Shown here piece by piece: positions 1 to 26,985 of a stretch of 44,776 nt of DNA; positions within the stretch are counted from its first letter, which is position 1, and each line of letters starts with the position of its first letter. The stretch lies in assembly GCA_947643405.1 (NCBI GenBank), contig CANRVY010000012.1:1-44776 (forward strand), written 5' to 3'. The stretch comes from an uncultured Mycoplasmatota bacterium (GTDB taxonomy: Bacteria; Bacillota_I; Bacilli_A; RF39; UBA660). The position numbers were made by a program, and so were the translations under genes. The notes under the pieces are model-generated. The model was given only the letters and a program-made list of their open reading frames with translations, did not search any database and was not told the DNA's origin.

Positions 1-128
1 CCATCACGATTGGTACTGTGATCAACACTATTACTCCTATTATTATTAGGACAGCTAGTAGTTCTATTAAGGTAAAGGCCTTATTTTCTAAGCCCCCCCC
101 CCTGGTTGCAATGTGTTACTTTATCCAT
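1..128 (-). pseudogene. type IV prepilin N-terminus, out of frame at a 10-G tract (phase-off or frameshifted; cut by window edge)
   Basis: Minus-strand bases 79 to 2 encode AFTLIELLAV followed by a hydrophobic IIIGVIVLITVPIV stretch. This is the class III signal and N-terminal helix of a type IV prepilin or pseudopilin, with the conserved Glu at mature position 5. The only good start is ATG at 128, nine bases after an AGAGAGG ribosome site (138-144). From it the frame reads MDKVTHCNQ into ten Gs (minus strand; Cs at 93-102) and then stops at TAA (81-83). The pilin frame itself meets a TAA at 116-118 with no start after it. Nine or twelve Gs would fuse both halves into MDKVTHCNQGGGLENKAF..., a normal leader. 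Position -1 is Ala instead of the usual Gly. The window ends inside the gene. Either this is a slipped-strand switch caught OFF, or it is a one-base assembly error. Confidence 0.75.
93..102. repeat. 10-bp homopolymer C (G on the coding strand) inside the prepilin leader
   Basis: Ten consecutive C bases stand in very AT-rich DNA, exactly between the start codon and the prepilin signal. Homopolymer G/C tracts of this length at the 5' end of surface genes are the usual substrate of slipped-strand phase variation. The length of 10 puts the gene out of frame. Nine or twelve restores the ATG frame. Eight or eleven would place a weak TTG (109-111) in frame. Confidence 0.85.
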
Positions 129-154
129 TTTCCATTACCTCTCTATTCTTCTTC

Positions 155-204
155 ATTCTATCAAACTATTTTTTTCTGTTTTTATTTTGTAACTATTTTG
201 CTAC
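155..204 (-). promoter_or_regulatory. pilin-type promoter P1: tandem 11-bp repeats plus extended -10
   Basis: On the minus strand, GTAGCAAAATA (194-204) is followed directly by GTTACAAAATA (183-193), matching at 9 of 11 positions. Exactly 22 bases later comes TAGAAT (155-160) preceded by TGA, an extended -10. No TTGACA-like -35 is present; the repeats occupy that place, which suggests an activator bound as a tandem dimer, one helical turn apart. The arrangement and most of the leader down to the ribosome site recur at 14094-14143 upstream of the large prepilin gene. Confidence 0.65.
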
Positions 205-308
205 AAATATTCACTTATAAAAAAAGTTTTTAACAAAGTAAATGATACAACAATAAAAATACAAGAATCTTAAATGACAAGTTTTTTTAATTTGAAATAT
301 ATATGCAA

Positions 309-1553: not shown

Positions 1554-2888
1554 TTAAACTCCGATTTCTAAAGGATCTACTTCTGTTCCACTTCCACCAG
1601 AAATACTTAAATTTATTTTTAAAACTACAGCAGGTCTAACTTTTAAATTCGCAGTCACCGCATTTGCAAATAATCTACCATCTTTTAACACTGTAAATAC
1701 TGTTCCATCGTCTTCATTGGCAGGATTCATTAAAGCATAATCAGAAAAATCATTAATAAATAAATCTGATACTTGAAGTAGTCCTACTTCTGTTGTCACA
1801 ATATCAGCTGATTTACCATGATAATGAAACTTTTCAATACTATTGTAATAATAATTTCTCCAGGGATATTCTACTAAATACTCTTTGTTTTCTAAAGAAT
1901 CATAATAAGTTGAATTTAGATAATAACCAATATTATCGGTCGATTTAATACTATACAAATTTGAATCTTTTGAAAAAGATTTATTAATTTCTTCTTCTCC
2001 AACTTTTAAATATCCATTGAGGGCAATTTTAACTCCCAAGTCATTAATTTCTACGATTCTCCAAATTTGATTACTATAAGTAATATAACTTCCTATAAAT
2101 TGATCTTTTAAAGCTGAACTTTTCACAACACTAATTTGATATGGACTATCTTTTGTTCCTGATCCTGCAATAATCTTTGTATCACCTTTTATTGCAATCA
2201 CAGGTCTAATTCCATAACTATGATAACTTTCCCCTGATACAGATTCATTACTTACCAAACCATTCTGATTAATAAACCAAGTTTTATAATCCTCATTAGG
2301 ACTAACCGTCCAGAATGTTTTTCCATTATTTAAATAACCTTTACTTCCTGATGCTTTTAAATAATCATAGACACTAATCATTGATATTTTTTTGGTTTCC
2401 TTTTTTGTACACTTTACATTGTTCGCTTCTAAAACTTCATCGGCACAGTAATTATGATCTACTAAAAATTCTGGATTTGATAATTGATTATAAAATATAT
2501 TATTTAACCATTCTTCTCCATAAGTTCCTTTAAAAGAATCTGACTCATATCCTAAAACCATAGAAGTTAAAGCATCTTCACTAATCAAAATGATATTATT
2601 GTTTTCATCAACTTTAACAATTCTCCATAGTATTCCAGAATAAGATAGATAATTATCTTCTACTGCACCTTTATAGAAATACTCTTTATTATCTTTATAT
2701 AACCCATTTCCAGATGAGACAACATGATTTAAATCAGTTATTGTTGTCCATAACAATCTTTCTTTTTCTGTCTTCGGATTCTCTAAACGATAATAATGTA
2801 CTAAACGATACCCATAAATTCCACATAGCGTTGCAATAAACAAGATACTTACAACAATAAATATTTTGGCTATTAATCTTTTATTCAT
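1554..2888 (-). CDS. membrane-anchored protein with two copies of the pilin-associated extracellular module
   Basis: 444 residues. One N-terminal membrane segment (about 7-27) leads to two tandem modules, roughly residues 50-255 and 260-444. Each opens with an L(Y/K)...Y..Y...WRIV(K/E)(V/I) strand and closes with (I/V)RP(A/V)(I/V) followed by GSGTxxxP near its end. The same closing signature ends the large prepilin (12654-14069) and a relic at 24.1 kb. The module resembles DUF6273-type domains found in gut Bacillota; this assignment is from memory, and function is unknown. There is no sortase motif or C-terminal anchor, so the N-terminal helix is the anchor. Ribosome site GAGGTAGG precedes the ATG. 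The gene is 49 bases downstream of gpmI and coupled to the next gene. Confidence 0.7.
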   Translation of the reverse strand: MNKRLIAKIFIVVSILFIATLCGIYGYRLVHYYRLENPKTEKERLLWTTITDLNHVVSSGNGLYKDNKEYFYKGAVEDNYLSYSGILWRIVKVDENNNIILISEDALTSMVLGYESDSFKGTYGEEWLNNIFYNQLSNPEFLVDHNYCADEVLEANNVKCTKKETKKISMISVYDYLKASGSKGYLNNGKTFWTVSPNEDYKTWFINQNGLVSNESVSGESYHSYGIRPVIAIKGDTKIIAGSGTKDSPYQISVVKSSALKDQFIGSYITYSNQIWRIVEINDLGVKIALNGYLKVGEEEINKSFSKDSNLYSIKSTDNIGYYLNSTYYDSLENKEYLVEYPWRNYYYNSIEKFHYHGKSADIVTTEVGLLQVSDLFINDFSDYALMNPANEDDGTVFTVLKDGRLFANAVTANLKVRPAVVLKINLSISGGSGTEVDPLEIGV

Positions 2889-2937
2889 AACCTACCTCAA
2901 TTCTTTTATATTTTCAATTTTACTATATGATTGAAAG

Positions 2938-4443
2938 TTATTTTTTTATCAAGCTTTTCCCAGACATTTCCTTAGGTATTTCGACATTCAATAATTCTAA
3001 TAAAGTTGGCGCAATATCCCCTAATTTTCCATTTTGCAAACTTAAATTATCTCTTGTGACAATAAAAGGCACCAATGCAGTAGAATGACTTGTTACAATT
3101 CTATTTTCTTCATCTAACATTGTATCACAATTTCCATGATCTGCTGTTACAACTAATGTTCCATTTAATTTTTTTAGCACTTTTTCCAATCTTTCTAAGC
3201 AACGATCCAAAGTATTAATTGCTTTTACTGTGGCATCAAAATCTCCTGTATGGCCTACCATGTCACCATTTGCATAATTCAAAATAACAACATCATAATC
3301 ATTCTTCTCTAACTCTAAAATCAATCTGTCAGTTATTTCTACTGCACTCATTTCTGGTTTCAAATCATAAGTTGCAACTTTAGGAGAAGGAATTAATATT
3401 CTTGTACAGCCTTTTAAATTCTTTTCTACTCCTCCATCAAAGAAATAAGTAACATGAGCATATTTTTCTGTTTCTGCAATTCTAAGTTGTTTCATTCCTA
3501 TATCACTAATATATTCTCCAAACGTATTTTCTAATTTTTCTAACTCAAAAGCATGAGTTCCAATTACTTCTTCACTAACTGGCATCATAGTAGCCAACTT
3601 CAAATTAGAAATCAAATTTCTTTTAAATCCCTCAAAATCTGGATTGGTTAATGCACTAAATAATTCTCTCAGACGATCAGGACGATAATTAAATATAATA
3701 CATCCATCATTTTCTTTTACCATTCCAGATTCATCAATAACAGATGGAATAATAAATTCATCATAAATCTCTTTCTGATAATTTGCCTCTATTGCTTTTA
3801 ATGCAGTTTCATGATGCTCTCCAATTCCATTTACAATTACCTGATACGCTTTTTCTACTCGATCCCATCTATTATCACGATCCATTGCATAATACCTTCC
3901 AGATATAGTAGCAATTGTTCCAATTCCCAGTTCTTTTAGCTTTTGCTCTAATCTTTCTATATAAATAGAAGCTACATTCGGCAATGTATCTCTACCATCT
4001 GTAAAAATATGAAGATATAACTTTTCAATCTGTTCTTTTTTTATCATATCTAAAAGTCCCATTAAATGATCAATATGAGAATGAATGCCTCCATCACTTA
4101 AAAGCCCAAATAGATGAAGTGCTGAATGATTTTCTTTTACATGATTCATAACATCTAATAAAGTAGCATTTTGATAAATTGTTTTTTCTTCAATATGTTT
4201 ATTAATTAATTCCAAAGGTTGATAAACTATTCTCCCAGCCCCAATATTCATATGCCCTACTTCACTATTTCCCATTTGTCCTTCTGGTAGCCCCACAAGT
4301 TTTCCACTTGCCTCTAATAAAGAATGTGGATAATAATTCCACAGAGCATCAAAAGTAGGAGTATTTGCTTTTAAAAAAGCATTTCCATGAACTTCTTTTC
4401 TCATACCAACACCATCTAATATACAAAGTACTAAAGGTTTCAT
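2938..4443 (-). CDS. gpmI: 2,3-bisphosphoglycerate-independent phosphoglycerate mutase
   Basis: Interconverts 3- and 2-phosphoglycerate in glycolysis using two Mn ions. N-terminal LCILDGVG gives the first metal Asp. GNSEVGH carries the phosphorylated Ser (residue 60). FTDGRDT, GRYYAMDRDNRWDR and, near the end, VVTADHGNCD and TSHSTALVPF supply the remaining metal and substrate residues. Length (501) is normal. I chose the ATG at 4443, preceded by AAGGA at 11 bases. A GTG at 4452 is in frame but crowds the ribosome site. It stands apart from tpiA and pgk in this window, unlike the compact gap-pgk-tpi-gpm-eno operon of Bacillus. Confidence 0.97.
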   Translation of the reverse strand: MKPLVLCILDGVGMRKEVHGNAFLKANTPTFDALWNYYPHSLLEASGKLVGLPEGQMGNSEVGHMNIGAGRIVYQPLELINKHIEEKTIYQNATLLDVMNHVKENHSALHLFGLLSDGGIHSHIDHLMGLLDMIKKEQIEKLYLHIFTDGRDTLPNVASIYIERLEQKLKELGIGTIATISGRYYAMDRDNRWDRVEKAYQVIVNGIGEHHETALKAIEANYQKEIYDEFIIPSVIDESGMVKENDGCIIFNYRPDRLRELFSALTNPDFEGFKRNLISNLKLATMMPVSEEVIGTHAFELEKLENTFGEYISDIGMKQLRIAETEKYAHVTYFFDGGVEKNLKGCTRILIPSPKVATYDLKPEMSAVEITDRLILELEKNDYDVVILNYANGDMVGHTGDFDATVKAINTLDRCLERLEKVLKKLNGTLVVTADHGNCDTMLDEENRIVTSHSTALVPFIVTRDNLSLQNGKLGDIAPTLLELLNVEIPKEMSGKSLIKK

Positions 4444-12653: not shown

Positions 12654-14069
12654 TCATTTAGTTAATATATATGGATCACTTTCTGTCCCTGTTCCATTTT
12701 TGATTTTTACATTTGAATCAAGAATTACTGCTGGACGTGCATAAATGCTACTATAATAAGCATAATGAAAACTGACTATTCCATTATAAATGAAAAACAC
12801 ATTATTTTGATTATCGCTTCGCAAAGTAAACGTCCATTCATTTCGATTAGGAGTTGCTAACCAATTGCTATTAAAACAAGTATTAGTACCTCTCAAATCA
12901 GTATCTAATGTACATTCGTTATCACTTGTTCCGTAAGCAAAATCAGTGACCGTCATTAATCCAATGGAATTTGATGTCGTATATTCACTATCTTTTTCGG
13001 CTGTTTCAAAAATTGATATTAAATGATCTGAATCATTATCTTTACCACTAAACTTCCACTTGTTATTTAACATCCATTCTTTTTGATCCTCTGAATTTAT
13101 CCATTCTGTATTATTAAATATGTCATTTTGTAATGCTGTATTTAAACTTGCTGGTCTTGTCCATATATTATATCCACTACGATCCCAAGCCACTCCAGCA
13201 TTTTTATAATACTCAGTACTAATTAATTTCAGATTACCGTCTATAACTCCTATTATTCTCCATAATTGTTTTCCACTACACGTTGTTTCATCTGTACCAA
13301 AACAAACATAGTTATTTGGATTACTCCCTGCATATCTTTTATTTCCACTTGTATCTGTTCTTATTATTCCATTTTCTCCTACTGCTTCTGAATTCATTAC
13401 TTCTTCAAAAGTTCTAATACTATTCTTTACCATAAAAGTTCTTGTTAATGATGCGATTTCTTTATTCTCATATATCATTCTGCATTTTACACAGTTTTCT
13501 CCTTCTTTTAATTCTTTAGTATTTGTTACTTCTTTATTGTCATCTGATAAATTAATACATGTTACCATTCCTTTTTGATTTCTAATATTATAATAACTTC
13601 CTGGTATTGCACTATCAAATCCTGATTCTATATAATTTAGTTTTATTCCTTCTTCAATCATTGGAGACTCAATTTTACATGTTTCTTTATTGTAATCTAT
13701 AATTTCTATACTTTCTTTGTCTTCCCTTTTTATTGCACACCATTTTTCATTATAGATAGACATTTCTATTTTACCATTACTTTTTACAATAATGGTTCCG
13801 CCTTTTGGTCTAGTGCCCTTATATTTTAATTCATTTTCTTCTTCCTCATATGAAAATACTTTATCCCCAAGTTCTTTATTGTCTATAATGTTTTCTACAT
13901 AATATAATCTTGCACTTTCCATAATCCCATATGCACTATTTTGAAATGCACTCTTTCTTGCTTTCTCTATGATATTTAATATTAATGGAACTGATATCAG
14001 CGCTATAATAGTTAGAATGATAATAACTGCTAGCAATTCTATTAATGTAAATCCTTTTTCTTTCTTCAT
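12654..14069 (-). CDS. large type IV prepilin with C-terminal extracellular module (putative pilus adhesin)
   Basis: 471 residues, far longer than a normal pilin. MKKEKG|FTLIELLAV gives prepilin cleavage after Gly 6 and Glu at mature position 5. The hydrophobic helix runs to about residue 31, then a pilin-like region with a Tyr-rich YGIMESARLYYVE helix. A spacer with paired Cys residues (CAIKRE, CKIES, CINLS, CVKC) leads to the module at about 229-471: LWRIIGVIDGNLKLIS, Trp-rich loops, more Cys pairs, and a closing ARPAVILDSNVKI...GTGTESDPYI. The same closing signature occurs twice in the protein at 1554-2888. Large modular minor pilins commonly cap a pilus and bind a target; that role is inferred here. 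Expression is from the repeat promoter at 14094-14143, and GAGGTG is the ribosome site. Confidence 0.8.
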   Translation of the reverse strand: MKKEKGFTLIELLAVIIILTIIALISVPLILNIIEKARKSAFQNSAYGIMESARLYYVENIIDNKELGDKVFSYEEEENELKYKGTRPKGGTIIVKSNGKIEMSIYNEKWCAIKREDKESIEIIDYNKETCKIESPMIEEGIKLNYIESGFDSAIPGSYYNIRNQKGMVTCINLSDDNKEVTNTKELKEGENCVKCRMIYENKEIASLTRTFMVKNSIRTFEEVMNSEAVGENGIIRTDTSGNKRYAGSNPNNYVCFGTDETTCSGKQLWRIIGVIDGNLKLISTEYYKNAGVAWDRSGYNIWTRPASLNTALQNDIFNNTEWINSEDQKEWMLNNKWKFSGKDNDSDHLISIFETAEKDSEYTTSNSIGLMTVTDFAYGTSDNECTLDTDLRGTNTCFNSNWLATPNRNEWTFTLRSDNQNNVFFIYNGIVSFHYAYYSSIYARPAVILDSNVKIKNGTGTESDPYILTK

Positions 14070-14093
14070 TTTTTCACCTCTTTATTCTTTTTC

Positions 14094-14143
14094 ATTATAG
14101 CAAACTCATTTTTTCTATTTTTATTTTGTAACCGTTTTGATAC
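14094..14143 (-). promoter_or_regulatory. pilin-type promoter P2: tandem 11-bp repeats plus extended -10
   Basis: On the minus strand GTATCAAAACG (14133-14143) abuts GTTACAAAATA (14122-14132). Twenty-two bases later comes TGCTATAAT, an extended -10 (hexamer 14094-14099). Repeat content, spacing and the following leader to the ribosome site match P1 (155-204). As at P1, no -35 hexamer is recognisable. Confidence 0.65.
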
Positions 14144-14152
14144 AGGTATGCA

Positions 14153-14184
14153 GTAAAAAAAAAAGATTAGAAGCCTCTAATCTT
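14153..14184 (-). terminator. strong terminator after tyrS
   Basis: Nine-base perfect stem AAGATTAGA / TCTAATCTT (14163-14171 and 14176-14184), 4-base loop, then ten Ts on the minus strand. It overlaps the tyrS stop and insulates the pilin promoter P2. Confidence 0.9.
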
Positions 14185-23112: not shown

Positions 23113-23158
23113 TAGTTTTTTTTCATTTATTGTGTTACAATAAATATAGGGTGATATG

Positions 23159-24055
23159 ATGGATATAGCAGAAGAAAAAAAGGGAATAAAAAAGAAACTA
23201 ATCATTGCTTTCATTATTTTTATTAGTCTTATTAGTTCAATTTTATTATATAGTAGATTTATTGGAACATCTGGATTAGTCATCAAAGAATATAAAGTTA
23301 AAAATACAAAACTCCCAACTTCCTTTTATGGACTTAAAATCATTCATATTAGTGATATTCATTATGGTAGAACAATTAAGAAAAAAGAATTTATTAAAAT
23401 AGTAGATGAAATTAATTTGCGAAACCCTGATATCGTTGTTTTTACTGGAGATTTATTTGATAATAATAAGTCATTAACAAAAGAAGATATAAAAGACATC
23501 ACAGAAGCACTCAAAAAAATAAATGCAACAATTGGAAAATTCGCAATTACAGGTGAACATGATTTTAAAAGAGATGAATGGTCCACCATTATTAAAGATT
23601 CTGGCTTTACAAATTTAAATGATACTTACGAATTAATTTATAAAGATGGATATGAACCAATTATGATAGCTGGTTTAAGTACTAATTTAAAAGGAACCAA
23701 AAATGCGAAAGACAAAATTACACCAATTAACGACTATATCAATTCTATTAAGAAATCAGAAGAAACAAATATTCCAAATTATAAAATTTTATTATTACAT
23801 GAACCAGATTATATCAATGATATTACTTATAAAAATTATGATTTGATATTAGCAGGACATTCTCATAATGGACAAATAATCATCCCTTTTATTGGACCAA
23901 CTTTAAAACCAAAAGGAGCATTAAAATATTATAGGGAATATTATTCTTTAGATAATACTGACCTTTATATTTCTAGTGGACTTGGAACAACCAATTTAGA
24001 TTTCAGATTATTGAATCATCCATCGTTTAATTTTTATCGAATAGTAAACAAATAA
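23159..24055 (+). CDS. membrane-anchored metallophosphoesterase (YkuE/YaeI-like) with altered GNH motif
   Basis: 298 residues from the second of two adjacent ATGs (AGGGTG ribosome site). One N-terminal helix (about 14-33) anchors an extracellular calcineurin-like domain: SDIHYG (Asp 67, His 69), FTGDLFD (Asp 99), ITGEHDF, LLHEPDY and AGHSHNGQI. Numbers are counted from the first ATG. The third motif is normally GNH(D/E), where Asn binds a metal; here it is GEHD. The order and spacing resemble YkuE/YaeI, which act on phosphodiesters such as UDP-sugar lipids. The change may alter metal use or activity. A terminator follows. Confidence 0.85.
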   Translation: MDIAEEKKGIKKKLIIAFIIFISLISSILLYSRFIGTSGLVIKEYKVKNTKLPTSFYGLKIIHISDIHYGRTIKKKEFIKIVDEINLRNPDIVVFTGDLFDNNKSLTKEDIKDITEALKKINATIGKFAITGEHDFKRDEWSTIIKDSGFTNLNDTYELIYKDGYEPIMIAGLSTNLKGTKNAKDKITPINDYINSIKKSEETNIPNYKILLLHEPDYINDITYKNYDLILAGHSHNGQIIIPFIGPTLKPKGALKYYREYYSLDNTDLYISSGLGTTNLDFRLLNHPSFNFYRIVNK

Positions 24056-24076
24056 AGTTTAAGAAAATATATATAA

Positions 24077-24109
24077 AATCAATTAGTATCTGAGCCAATT
24101 GGTTTTTTT
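24077..24109 (+). terminator. terminator after the metallophosphoesterase gene
   Basis: Ten-position stem AATCAATTAG / CCAATTGGTT (one wobble, one mismatch), 8-base loop, then Ts. Confidence 0.75.
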
Positions 24110-24173
24110 ATTTGCCTAATAAATTGGGATTACTTTCTGTACCATTTCCTTTATTATAACTATAATAACAATT
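24108..24173 (-). pseudogene. 3' relic of a pilin-module gene
   Basis: The minus frame reads CYYSYNKGNGTESNPNLLGK and stops at 24108. It matches the closing signature of the module in the large prepilin (NGTGTESDPYILTK) and in the two-module protein (GGSGTEVDPLEIGV). There is an in-frame stop about 24 codons upstream and no start. Upstream, at 24191-24201, is a copy of the pilin promoter repeat. The gene between seems to have been deleted. Confidence 0.6.
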
Positions 24174-24190
24174 TCTTTTTTTCTATCTTC

Positions 24191-24212
24191 TATTTTGTCA
24201 CTAAACTACTGC
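24191..24212 (-). promoter_or_regulatory. third copy of the pilin promoter repeat, decayed
   Basis: GTGACAAAATA (24191-24201, minus strand) differs at one position from GTTACAAAATA of P1 and P2, and is followed by AAGATAGAAAAAAAG, like the AAACAGAAAAAAA/AAATAGAAAAAA after P1 and P2. The second, distal repeat is only about half matched. It precedes the pilin-module relic. Confidence 0.45.
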
Positions 24213-24219
24213 ACGTATT

Positions 24220-24246
24220 CAAAAAAATGATATAAAATATACCATT
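24220..24246 (-). terminator. terminator after the DUF2099-like gene
   Basis: AATGGTATA / TATATCATT (minus strand; one G-T pair) with a 3-base loop, followed by Ts. The gene stops at 24253. Confidence 0.7.
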
Positions 24247-24252
24247 CTCTTA

Positions 24253-25980
24253 TTATACACAAGGATGCGGACAATCAATACAATCATATAGCATTTTTTT
24301 CTGCAACACCTTAATTTTTCCTCTTTCATTTAAAAACACTGGTTTCTCTGATCCTTTTATAAGTCTTACAACACTTCCATCGAAACCCATTCTCATTAAA
24401 TGACTTCTTACAATTTGAAATCCTTTCTCTGTCATTATATGAACTGGAATTTTTATTCCTACCTGGGCAATCGCGTTTGGTTCTACAAATTCTTTTACAT
24501 TTTTTGAAGCACAAGTCCATATAACATCCGCATTTTCTCCCATAATTTTAGCTGTTTTAGAGTCTATTCCTGTAGAGCATAATCCAAATTTATAAATTGT
24601 AATCCCATCAGTTTCTAATCTTTTTAAAGCTTCATGAAGAATATTATCATTGGCAGCTACTGAAACAGCTATTTTTTTATATCCAAGACGAATTGCTTTT
24701 TTTACTCCTTCTAATTGATTGATTGTTGCAGTATAAGGATAAAATGGTATAATTCCTGATTTTTTTGCTGTCTCTATAATTTCTTTAGAAGGACTCGTAT
24801 AAAATAACCCAGTCATTCTTTTTACAGCTCCTTGAGTATTAGAATCATTTGTTGTAATAATTGTTCCTAAATTATTAGAAACAATCACTGCTGCATCTAT
24901 TATTCCGTCTTGAAATGCTGATGACATAGTTTCCGATGCCCCAAATAAAACATTTGCTTCACAGGAATTAAGTGGTCTACTAGTATCAAAGTATCCTCCT
25001 TTTATTACAACTTCATCAATTAAATGACACATCATTTTAGTCTGTATCTCTTGATCCTCTATTTGCAACGTTGCTAACAATCTTTCAGCTACTTCACCAC
25101 CTACTTCCTTTAATAGTTTTATCATTAATGGGCAATATTGAATTGGTATTGGAGTTGCTTTTAATGCTTTCAACTTTCCTGATTCTTTTCCTAATAAAAT
25201 GTAACTTCCAAACATTCTAGTAATATGCATTTCATGTTCACTATAATAATCTCGAATACACTCATTGATATAAGTGATTAGGTTGGTATCAGGATATTGC
25301 ATATAGACTCTTAAATCCTCATCTTGCTTTACTCCATATATTTTAGTTTCTTCTTTTCCCTTTAATTTTTGCTTCATATATTCTAATAATCCTGCATTCT
25401 GAATTTGATTCCAATTTTGATCTATAGAAAAATAAGTTTCCAAATGAAGATTTTTTAAAGGAAGTGAATAACAATATATTTCTCCTATTTCTGAATAAAA
25501 ACAATCTACCTTTCCTTCTCCACTCTGATAAGAATCTCTATTTGGGATTACATATAAATCAAAATTATTAATAGAATCAAACGTTTCACGTTTCCTATAA
25601 AATTCCAATACTTTTTTATGCATAACTTTTTCATAATCTCGAAAATTTTGATATAAATAAAGATTAAATCTTCTAAAATCTTCTGCTGCACTCATACAAG
25701 AAGCCCTATAATTATATCCCATTAATTGATATAAATTTTCTATTGTTCCTAATCTTGAATCATAGGAAGGAATAACTGTATGAAACTCTATATCCTCGTT
25801 CATTAATTTTTCGTTCTTATATCCTAAACGTTTATATACTTCATATGCGGATGGGCCAAAGCCAAATTGCATAAAATCAATTTTTTGAGCTTCTTCAATA
25901 TTTTCTACAAATTCTCCCTTTTCATTTACATATCCATATTTTGTTTTTAAAACATATACTAGTCCAGCATGACTTGCCAT
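24253..25980 (-). CDS. DUF2099-like protein (methanogenesis marker 8 type) with long N-terminal extension
   Basis: 575 residues from the ATG at 25980, preceded by AGGAGGAATTAAA. The C-terminal half resembles DUF2099: IIDAAVIVSNNLGTIITTN, QGAVKRMTGLFYTSPSKEII, GVKKAIRLGYKKIAVSVA, YKFGLCSTGIDSKTAKIM, ADVIWTCASKNVKEF, IPVHIMTEKGFQIVRSHL. These follow the (C/V)DGAGTVIT-QG-GRMSGL-TSPI-IDQxxGVxxA-AVTVA pattern I recall for that family. The N-terminal half (about 1-320) is not recognised. The protein ends in CIDCPHPC with three Cys that could bind metal, plus CSTG and CASK Cys in the core. Divergent from a LysR-type gene 111 bases away, its likely regulator. The biochemical role of the family is unknown. 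Confidence 0.65.
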   Translation of the reverse strand: MASHAGLVYVLKTKYGYVNEKGEFVENIEEAQKIDFMQFGFGPSAYEVYKRLGYKNEKLMNEDIEFHTVIPSYDSRLGTIENLYQLMGYNYRASCMSAAEDFRRFNLYLYQNFRDYEKVMHKKVLEFYRKRETFDSINNFDLYVIPNRDSYQSGEGKVDCFYSEIGEIYCYSLPLKNLHLETYFSIDQNWNQIQNAGLLEYMKQKLKGKEETKIYGVKQDEDLRVYMQYPDTNLITYINECIRDYYSEHEMHITRMFGSYILLGKESGKLKALKATPIPIQYCPLMIKLLKEVGGEVAERLLATLQIEDQEIQTKMMCHLIDEVVIKGGYFDTSRPLNSCEANVLFGASETMSSAFQDGIIDAAVIVSNNLGTIITTNDSNTQGAVKRMTGLFYTSPSKEIIETAKKSGIIPFYPYTATINQLEGVKKAIRLGYKKIAVSVAANDNILHEALKRLETDGITIYKFGLCSTGIDSKTAKIMGENADVIWTCASKNVKEFVEPNAIAQVGIKIPVHIMTEKGFQIVRSHLMRMGFDGSVVRLIKGSEKPVFLNERGKIKVLQKKMLYDCIDCPHPCV

Positions 25981-26091
25981 TTTAATTCCTCCTCTACAAA
26001 GAAATGCATCTCTTTCTAATTGCATTATACCTCATTCCATGATATAAATATAATATATATTTTTTATGTTTAATATAAAGGAGATTTATAT

Positions 26092-26985
26092 ATGAATATT
26101 AACTATGAAAGCTATAAAATATTTTATACAGTTGCGATTAATGAGAGTATTTCTGCCGCTGCCAATGAATTATTAATTTCGCAACCAGCTGTTTCTTTTC
26201 AAATCAAATCATTAGAAGAACAAATAGGAATTGCTCTATTTGTTAGAACCAAAAAAGGTGTCATATTAACAGAAGAAGGAAAAGTATTGTTTGATTATGT
26301 AAAAAAAGGAATAGAAAGTTTTTCAAATGGGGAAAACACATTAACCAATTTAAGGAATTTAGATAGAGGAAATATTAGAATTGGAGCTAGTACAACAGTT
26401 AGTAGACATGTATTGATGCCTTATCTAGAAATATTTCATGAAAAATATCCAAATATCGATATTGAGATTGTAAATACATTAACAGAAACTTTATTAAAAG
26501 AATTGAGAAATGGAAACTTAGATATTTTGATATTAAATTTGCCTATTGCTTTTGATTATAAAGATTTGAATGTGTTACCAGTTATGAAAGTACAAGACAT
26601 TTTTGTAGGAAATAAAAGATATTATGATTTGACAAGAGGAAAAGTAAAATTAGAAGAACTTCAAAACTTTCCACTGTTATTTCAGAAAAATCCATCCAAT
26701 ACAAGAAAATTTTTAGATAAATTTCTAAATACAAACCATGTTCTTTTGAGACCAAAAACAGAAATTGTTAGTTATAATCTAATTATGGATTTTATAAAAA
26801 GTGGATTTGGAATTGGTTATGCTACAAAAGAATTCATCAAAGAGGATTTAAACAAAACGCTTTTTGAAATTAAAGTCATTCCTACTATACCAAAAAGGGA
26901 CATTGGAATTGTAACATTAAACAATAGAATTCCGAATTATAGTGTAAAGAAACTAATTGATTTGATAAAAAAGAAGCCGAGTTAA
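26092..26985 (+). CDS. LysR-family transcriptional regulator
   Basis: 297 residues. The N-terminal winged helix-turn-helix (about 3-62) has the family signature FYTVAINESISAAANELLISQPAVSFQIKSLEEQIGIALFVRTKKGVILTEEG. A linker helix and a periplasmic-binding-like effector domain follow (GNIRIGASTTVSRHVLMPYLEIFHEKYPNI...). It has AAAGGAG as its ribosome site. It faces the DUF2099-like gene back to back, the classical LysR arrangement, so that gene and itself are the expected targets. The effector is unknown. Its stop codon overlaps that of the HAD gene. Confidence 0.93.
   Translation: MNINYESYKIFYTVAINESISAAANELLISQPAVSFQIKSLEEQIGIALFVRTKKGVILTEEGKVLFDYVKKGIESFSNGENTLTNLRNLDRGNIRIGASTTVSRHVLMPYLEIFHEKYPNIDIEIVNTLTETLLKELRNGNLDILILNLPIAFDYKDLNVLPVMKVQDIFVGNKRYYDLTRGKVKLEELQNFPLLFQKNPSNTRKFLDKFLNTNHVLLRPKTEIVSYNLIMDFIKSGFGIGYATKEFIKEDLNKTLFEIKVIPTIPKRDIGIVTLNNRIPNYSVKKLIDLIKKKPS

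Follow-up and report, generated by a model that had tools for sequence, protein, structure and literature searches.

A prepilin-module gene represented only by its two ends lies on the minus strand, at positions 24227 to 24108, of the window analyzed here, which is the whole of contig C12 (44,776 nt) of a genome assembled into 57 contigs (G000; 1.55 Mb). A promoter-like stretch of ~80 bp passes directly into a tail of 14 codons and a stop codon. Both ends best match a single gene type, that of an intact prepilin gene on another contig of the same genome (C18:8344-9753; 470 codons), and it is highly probable that a C18-type prepilin-module gene with its promoter once stood at this place and that a single internal deletion left the remnant. 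A sequence-only reading of the window had described the feature as a promoter repeat and a 3' end with the body missing, a description confirmed here with corrected limits.

Promoter and tail of the remnant

The remnant, its neighbors, and the other module copies of the window are as follows, with the basis of each assignment in parentheses.

24148-24227, minus strand: remnant of a prepilin-module promoter, with an operator-like repeat, an A-rich spacer, and an altered -10 element, TATTAT (promoter model R1, DNA search with the C18 promoter)
24191-24201, minus strand: core noted in the sequence-only reading, GTGACAAAATA, for which the six model promoters have GTTACAAAATA (sequence, alignment A1 with the relic added)
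24152-24169, minus strand: 9-bp near-perfect tandem duplication GTTATTATA-GTTATAATA at the -10 (pattern positions; duplication read by eye)
24150-24155, minus strand: AATAAA at the join (pattern positions in C18; offsets and reading by hand)
24108-24152, minus strand: module-gene tail, last 14 codons, KGNGTESNPNLLGK, and stop (sequence, tail score)
24075-24107, plus strand: terminator-like hairpin and T-run of the phosphoesterase gene (fold of 24070-24110: -7.0 kcal/mol, z -2.6)
23156-24055, plus strand: left neighbor, calcineurin-like phosphoesterase gene, PF00149 (domain match)
24253-26025, minus strand: right neighbor, DUF2099-like gene, PF09872 (domain match)
12654-14069, minus strand: intact module gene of 471 codons with a prepilin N-terminus, promoter at 14071-14159 (domain match, R1)
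1-220, minus strand: further module promoter (133-220) and the 5' end of a prepilin gene truncated by the contig end (R1)

The two parts of the remnant lie on the same strand, abut each other, and follow the order that they have in an intact gene. The gene body, including the prepilin leader and helix, is absent, and there is no room for it between them; the remnant retains no domain, and the variable region is deleted. The sequence-only reading placed a promoter repeat at 24191 to 24201 and, within ~20 bases of it, the last ~20 codons of the module. A repeat does sit there, but it is merely the core of a resemblance that spans ~80 bp, and the tail is present but comprises 14 codons and a stop, starting ~38 bp past the core, where it abuts the -10 region. 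The 9-bp duplication at the -10 is not present in the C18 promoter; immediately after it comes AAAGGA, with which the tail opens. The stop codon lies just past the T-run of the phosphoesterase hairpin.

The promoter end was examined with R1, a sequence-only model based on an alignment (A1) of six module-gene promoters from three species, from which the relic was left out. Scanned against the window, R1 gave three significant matches, namely the relic (24148-24226; 31.7 bits, E = 6.3e-9) and two members of the model, while the next matches had E-values of 4.5 and 6. In the scan of the genus the relic was again recovered (24148-24227; E = 2.6e-7); 150 of 2063 to 2478 candidates per genome were scored there, and promoter counts from it are lower bounds. 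With the C18 promoter as a DNA query against the six genus genomes, 24143-24225 was matched at 84% (E = 1e-17), and among the places listed in the six genomes the relic ranked second after C18 itself, above two prepilin promoters of G005.

Across the six promoters 43 columns are invariant, and the relic retains 32 of them. Three of the columns it has lost (19, 31, and 67) carry substitutions in the operator halves and the -10; the other eight, three of them gaps, lie past the -10, in a part of the alignment upset by the duplication and the join. As a control, the C18 promoter misses 9 of 52 and that of the intact window gene 7 of 50 of the columns that are invariant in the other five. Judged from these alignments, the relic promoter is likely decayed, and its divergence from the others does not greatly exceed that of C18. 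The term "decayed," used of this repeat in the sequence-only reading, is thus made likely by the three operator and -10 substitutions but kept short of proof by the similar counts of the two controls.

For the tail end, comparison with the C18 tail, a query picked after the match had been seen (unlike model R1), gives a score of 49 over 13 residues and the stop, while the best matches in 200 Markov-simulated windows averaged 20.1 and reached a maximum of 35. A chance match of the peptide, which the sequence-only reading had named as a ground for abandoning its proposal, is rejected on this comparison. When the tail of the intact window gene was used as the query, the relic was the best match after that gene itself (a score of 42, with the next at 29, taken without a null). 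In nucleotide sequence, the tail shares 32 of 42 bases with that of C18.

The remnant site and other module sites in relatives

The phosphoesterase gene is present in 24 of the 39 relatives searched (25 of 40 when G000 is counted), and in 22 of these 24 at least 660 bases could be read downstream of it. A pilin match (E ≤ 0.01) follows the gene in none of the 22, three congeners included (0/3), and no R1 promoter with E < 0.1 was found downstream of it in those relatives. Nine loci of named relatives, one of them a G002 contig, likewise yielded neither an intact copy at the relic site nor an R1 match with E < 0.1. In G002 and G005 the phosphoesterase gene is adjacent to a HAD gene, with no LysR-type gene found between the two; in G004 a different gene comes next, and in G001 and G003 the phosphoesterase gene was not matched. 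The DUF2099-like gene occurs in one of six genus genomes and in 1 of 58 sampled family genomes, each time that of the window, and for this reason it was probably acquired. Since the congeners have no DUF2099-like gene, and G002 and G005 no LysR-type gene at this place, the interval is particular to the window's genome. In the window (24253-26985) the DUF2099-like gene, which is methanogenesis-marker-8-like below the model cut-off, adjoins the LysR-type gene.

The sequence-only reading had looked to an intact prepilin gene at this site in related genomes for confirmation, and none was found. Because its right-hand flank, the DUF2099-like gene, is confined to the window's genome among those searched, the interval it wished to compare does not exist in that form in the others. 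It had also held that relatives never carrying a pilin here would speak against its proposal; such absence is literally what the 22 relatives display, but we do not count this as a refutation, given that congeners are equally empty at the sites of C18 and of the window-start copy. Probably the cassette was gained in this lineage or was lost from the others without a trace. That a full-length ancestor is unseen at the site lowers the proof of a deletion in place, not that of homology.

C18 lies between genes that we read as Hsp20-like and GNAT-like. This site is empty in all four informative congeners, G002 offering just 141 readable bases: the two flanking genes are adjacent in G001, G005 has a broken acetyltransferase gene and no visible pilin, and another neighbor without a pilin is found in G003 and G004. 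The window-start copy follows the gene at 354-1553, and its site is empty in three of three congeners; G001, G003, and G004 keep that gene and the same upstream neighbors, with no pilin after it. A place in G004 (C6) was considered as the counterpart of the window-start site and rejected, the neighbor gene there being a paralogue. The intact window gene (12654-14069) follows TyrRS, a site probably filled in one of four congeners, G002, because a module promoter and a start codon stand there at a contig end. In G005 the gene is missing from this site and a small prepilin before PGK is kept; no pilin occurs in 1.5 kb of G004 or in 0.58 kb of G003, and TyrRS was not matched in G001.

A second decayed module gene lies in G004 (C6; L195 ~719-1831), between the paralogue (w351) of gene 354-1553 and an SMC-like gene. 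Its operator and A-rich spacer are fused to the body at about codon 41, as counted on a C48-type gene, and stops and frame changes are followed by an intact tail. Against R1 this copy reaches 10.6 bits (E = 0.11), and by eye its operator and spacer are ~1 base off the other G004 copies. The flanking genes are adjacent in G000, G001, and G005, and at the same place G002 and G003 have other sequence without a pilin match. Presence at a site is thus mostly species-specific, and decay recurs. Gain and loss of these genes as units, suggested in the sequence-only reading, is supported by empty congener sites at the four places where G000 has a copy or a remnant and by the second decayed copy in G004; the units that appear and disappear run from promoter to stop. 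With empty congener sites and a remnant in hand, cassette exchange of surface pilins becomes a site-by-site question for strain collections.

Promoter matches also stand within ~10 bases of contig ends, pointing outward, at least 16 times in total (at least nine in G002, five in G004, one in G000 on C22, and one in G001 on C7). Their left flanks are mostly different, three of those in G002 being alike over some 60 bp, and the shared part starts near TGAATATTTGTA. We take this pattern as a sign of a near-identical multicopy module repeat that breaks assemblies. An orphan module promoter follows the IF2 gene in G002 (C77; L120 6799-6875; R1 E = 0.13), with its operator partly missing and the contig ending soon after.

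Proposed internal deletion and its alternatives

Internal deletion of a complete promoter-to-stop unit, as the sequence-only reading had proposed, is the simplest explanation because both ends match one gene type and the whole body is missing. A C18-type gene would have stood between the phosphoesterase gene and the present DUF2099-like gene, and a single deletion would have taken everything from just past the -10 to the last 14 codons. In the frame of C18, which serves as a stand-in and not as the true ancestor, the missing body amounts to ~1.39 kb. Short direct repeats rich in A+T, for example AATAAA, probably bounded the deletion; C18 has this hexamer at both ends of the missing stretch, ~1387 bp apart by hand count (anchors 1393 apart), making it a possible microhomology. 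That the deletion took place here, and its order relative to the insertion of the DUF2099-like and LysR-type genes, we infer. Lacking an open reading frame for a pilin and keeping a worn promoter, the remnant most likely does nothing.

Another origin would have the 120-bp piece, both ends without the body, inserted as a short mobile copy, much as a MITE derives from a longer element. The survival of both ends and nothing else would fit such an insertion, as would the dispersed, multicopy nature of the family, whose promoter is found at many contig ends in G002 and G004. A second copy with both ends only was, however, not met among the 150 of 2063 to 2478 candidates per genome; the G004 remnant keeps most of its body, and the orphan promoter on G002:C77 has no tail before the contig end. 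Nor did we see by eye a transposase, a terminal inverted repeat, or a target-site duplication. We consider an insertion of this kind improbable. We give a little less credence still to the idea that the remnant was kept for a function, be it as a spare operator titrating a pilin regulator or as a promoter of a short or antisense RNA toward the phosphoesterase gene. Some 80 bp of promoter are still recognizable, and through the duplication a TATAAT-like hexamer recurs 9 bp downstream; yet both operator halves and the -10 are altered at columns invariant in the six promoters, the 101 nt downstream are no more stably folded than shuffled sequences (z 0.37), and the remnant is absent from congeners. 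Chance resemblance within AT-rich intergenic DNA has some appeal in a region of ~80% A+T, where A-rich spacers are easy to match, but two independent matches in the right order, strand, and distance, each past its null, leave it hardly credible.

Under the preferred reading, an internal deletion, the remnant would be the footprint of a loss in a birth-and-death family of promoter-to-stop units, the copies of which would arise at intergenic places species by species and then decay there. Multicopy surface-protein families that evolve by birth and death leave pseudogene remnants. The relic resembles these in having intact paralogues elsewhere, an internally deleted copy, and species-specific sites; it differs in that both ends alone survive, so that the limits of the unit can be read, and in belonging to an uncultured lineage of the Bacilli/Tenericutes type. 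As a remnant it is ordinary, and it may be of note for what it says of a fast-turning prepilin family and of the possible diversification of that family by a retroelement. By marking the start and the end of a unit, a remnant with both ends supports the gain and loss of prepilin genes as wholes. In the open-licence literature, covered mostly at the level of listings, we recognized no paper as describing this prepilin family.

Module proteins and a retroelement

The two intact module proteins of G000 and that of G005:C68 match PF07963 (N_methyl) above the cut-off, and the C18 protein also matches TIGR02532 above its cut-off. The module proteins share the N_methyl motif with other prepilin-like proteins and differ from them in their length of at least 470 codons and their large C-terminal part. 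DUF6273 (PF19789) was matched weakly, below the cut-off, in the G005:C68 protein (E = 0.0029) and not in the proteins of C18 or the window gene. In the predicted structure of the C18 protein (mean pLDDT 52.9, pTM 0.40) the long N-terminal helix alone is usable, and the C-terminal third is poor. The C-terminal parts end in conserved tails like GVRPVVYLD...GTESNPYILTK, and the stretch before this tail varies strongly among the 24 copies listed. Among C18, C20, and the window gene at 12654-14069, the N-terminal halves are far more similar than the C-terminal parts, C20 matching 1-260 at 83% before continuing with a different module; from the sequences, this suggests exchange between copies.

Contig C50 of G000 starts with a module tail, after which come two small proteins, a reverse transcriptase, and eight template-like repeats (L063 1-3000; L209 = C50 2900-7028).

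C50:790-1158: Avd-like protein (NF033474, E = 3.8e-7, 30.4 bits against a cut-off of 80)
C50:1133-2233: reverse transcriptase (PF00078, E = 6.7e-23; IGNMSSQ and YMDD read by eye)
C50, ends at ~2353-3975: eight template-like repeats in one array

Among the NCBIfam models the reverse transcriptase has matches below cut-off alone, to other types of reverse transcriptase. Nine modules were compared with the templates in an adenine test, in which template and placement were picked by total identity over 90 bases and the one-sided p-values are uncorrected. An adenine-biased signature appeared in three of the nine: C20b of G000 (A, 15/32; others, 7/58; p = 3.7e-4), G005:C25 (A, 13/32; others, 2/58; p = 1.3e-5), and G005:C68 (A, 15/31; others, 7/59; p = 2.2e-4), the latter two coming from another species and being compared with G000 templates. 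C20a was borderline (p = 0.051, identity 47/90), and no signature was seen in C18, the window gene, C8, C21, or G005:C37.

By its reverse transcriptase and its template and variable repeats, the sequence of G000 qualifies it as the holder of a diversity-generating retroelement, whose targets appear to include some relatives of the lost gene. It is G005:C68, with a promoter of the same type as the relic, that links the family of the relic to the retroelement, although C18 carries no signature. Evenly balanced, in our judgment, is a broader reading in which the relic would be a dead member of a dispersed prepilin family that is gained and lost as units and diversified by the retroelement in the C-terminus, upstream of the surviving tail, so as to form a pilus repertoire with remote targets. 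The link to the retroelement, if confirmed, would make the family a repertoire of variable pili. Dispersed targets are described for the diversity-generating retroelement of Treponema denticola (PMC4891356), and a study of phage tentaclins describes DUF6273/C-lec targets, structure prediction giving DUF6273 a C-type lectin-like fold (PMC10743442). The present system is similar in having one locus and several remote targets, and it differs in that its targets are prepilins, its eight template repeats form one array, and the signature is found in three of nine modules.

G-tracts (10 G, 11 G, and GGGGGGAGGGG) occur in prepilin-gene leaders of three species, at 93-102 of the window, in G002:C36 (L107), and in G005:C89 (L188). 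By hand translation, the tract is in frame with the prepilin motif in G002, whereas in the window and G005 it is not; slippage at the tract could possibly cause phase variation of the prepilin gene. Upstream of the retroelement genes (C50 ~329-390), a motif like GAAACTAAATAGTAACAAAAA precedes TATAAT by ~26 bases and resembles a second class of prepilin promoter, found in G000 (C5 and C41) and G005 (C21). As compared by eye, the retroelement and the second-class prepilin promoters may possibly be under shared control.
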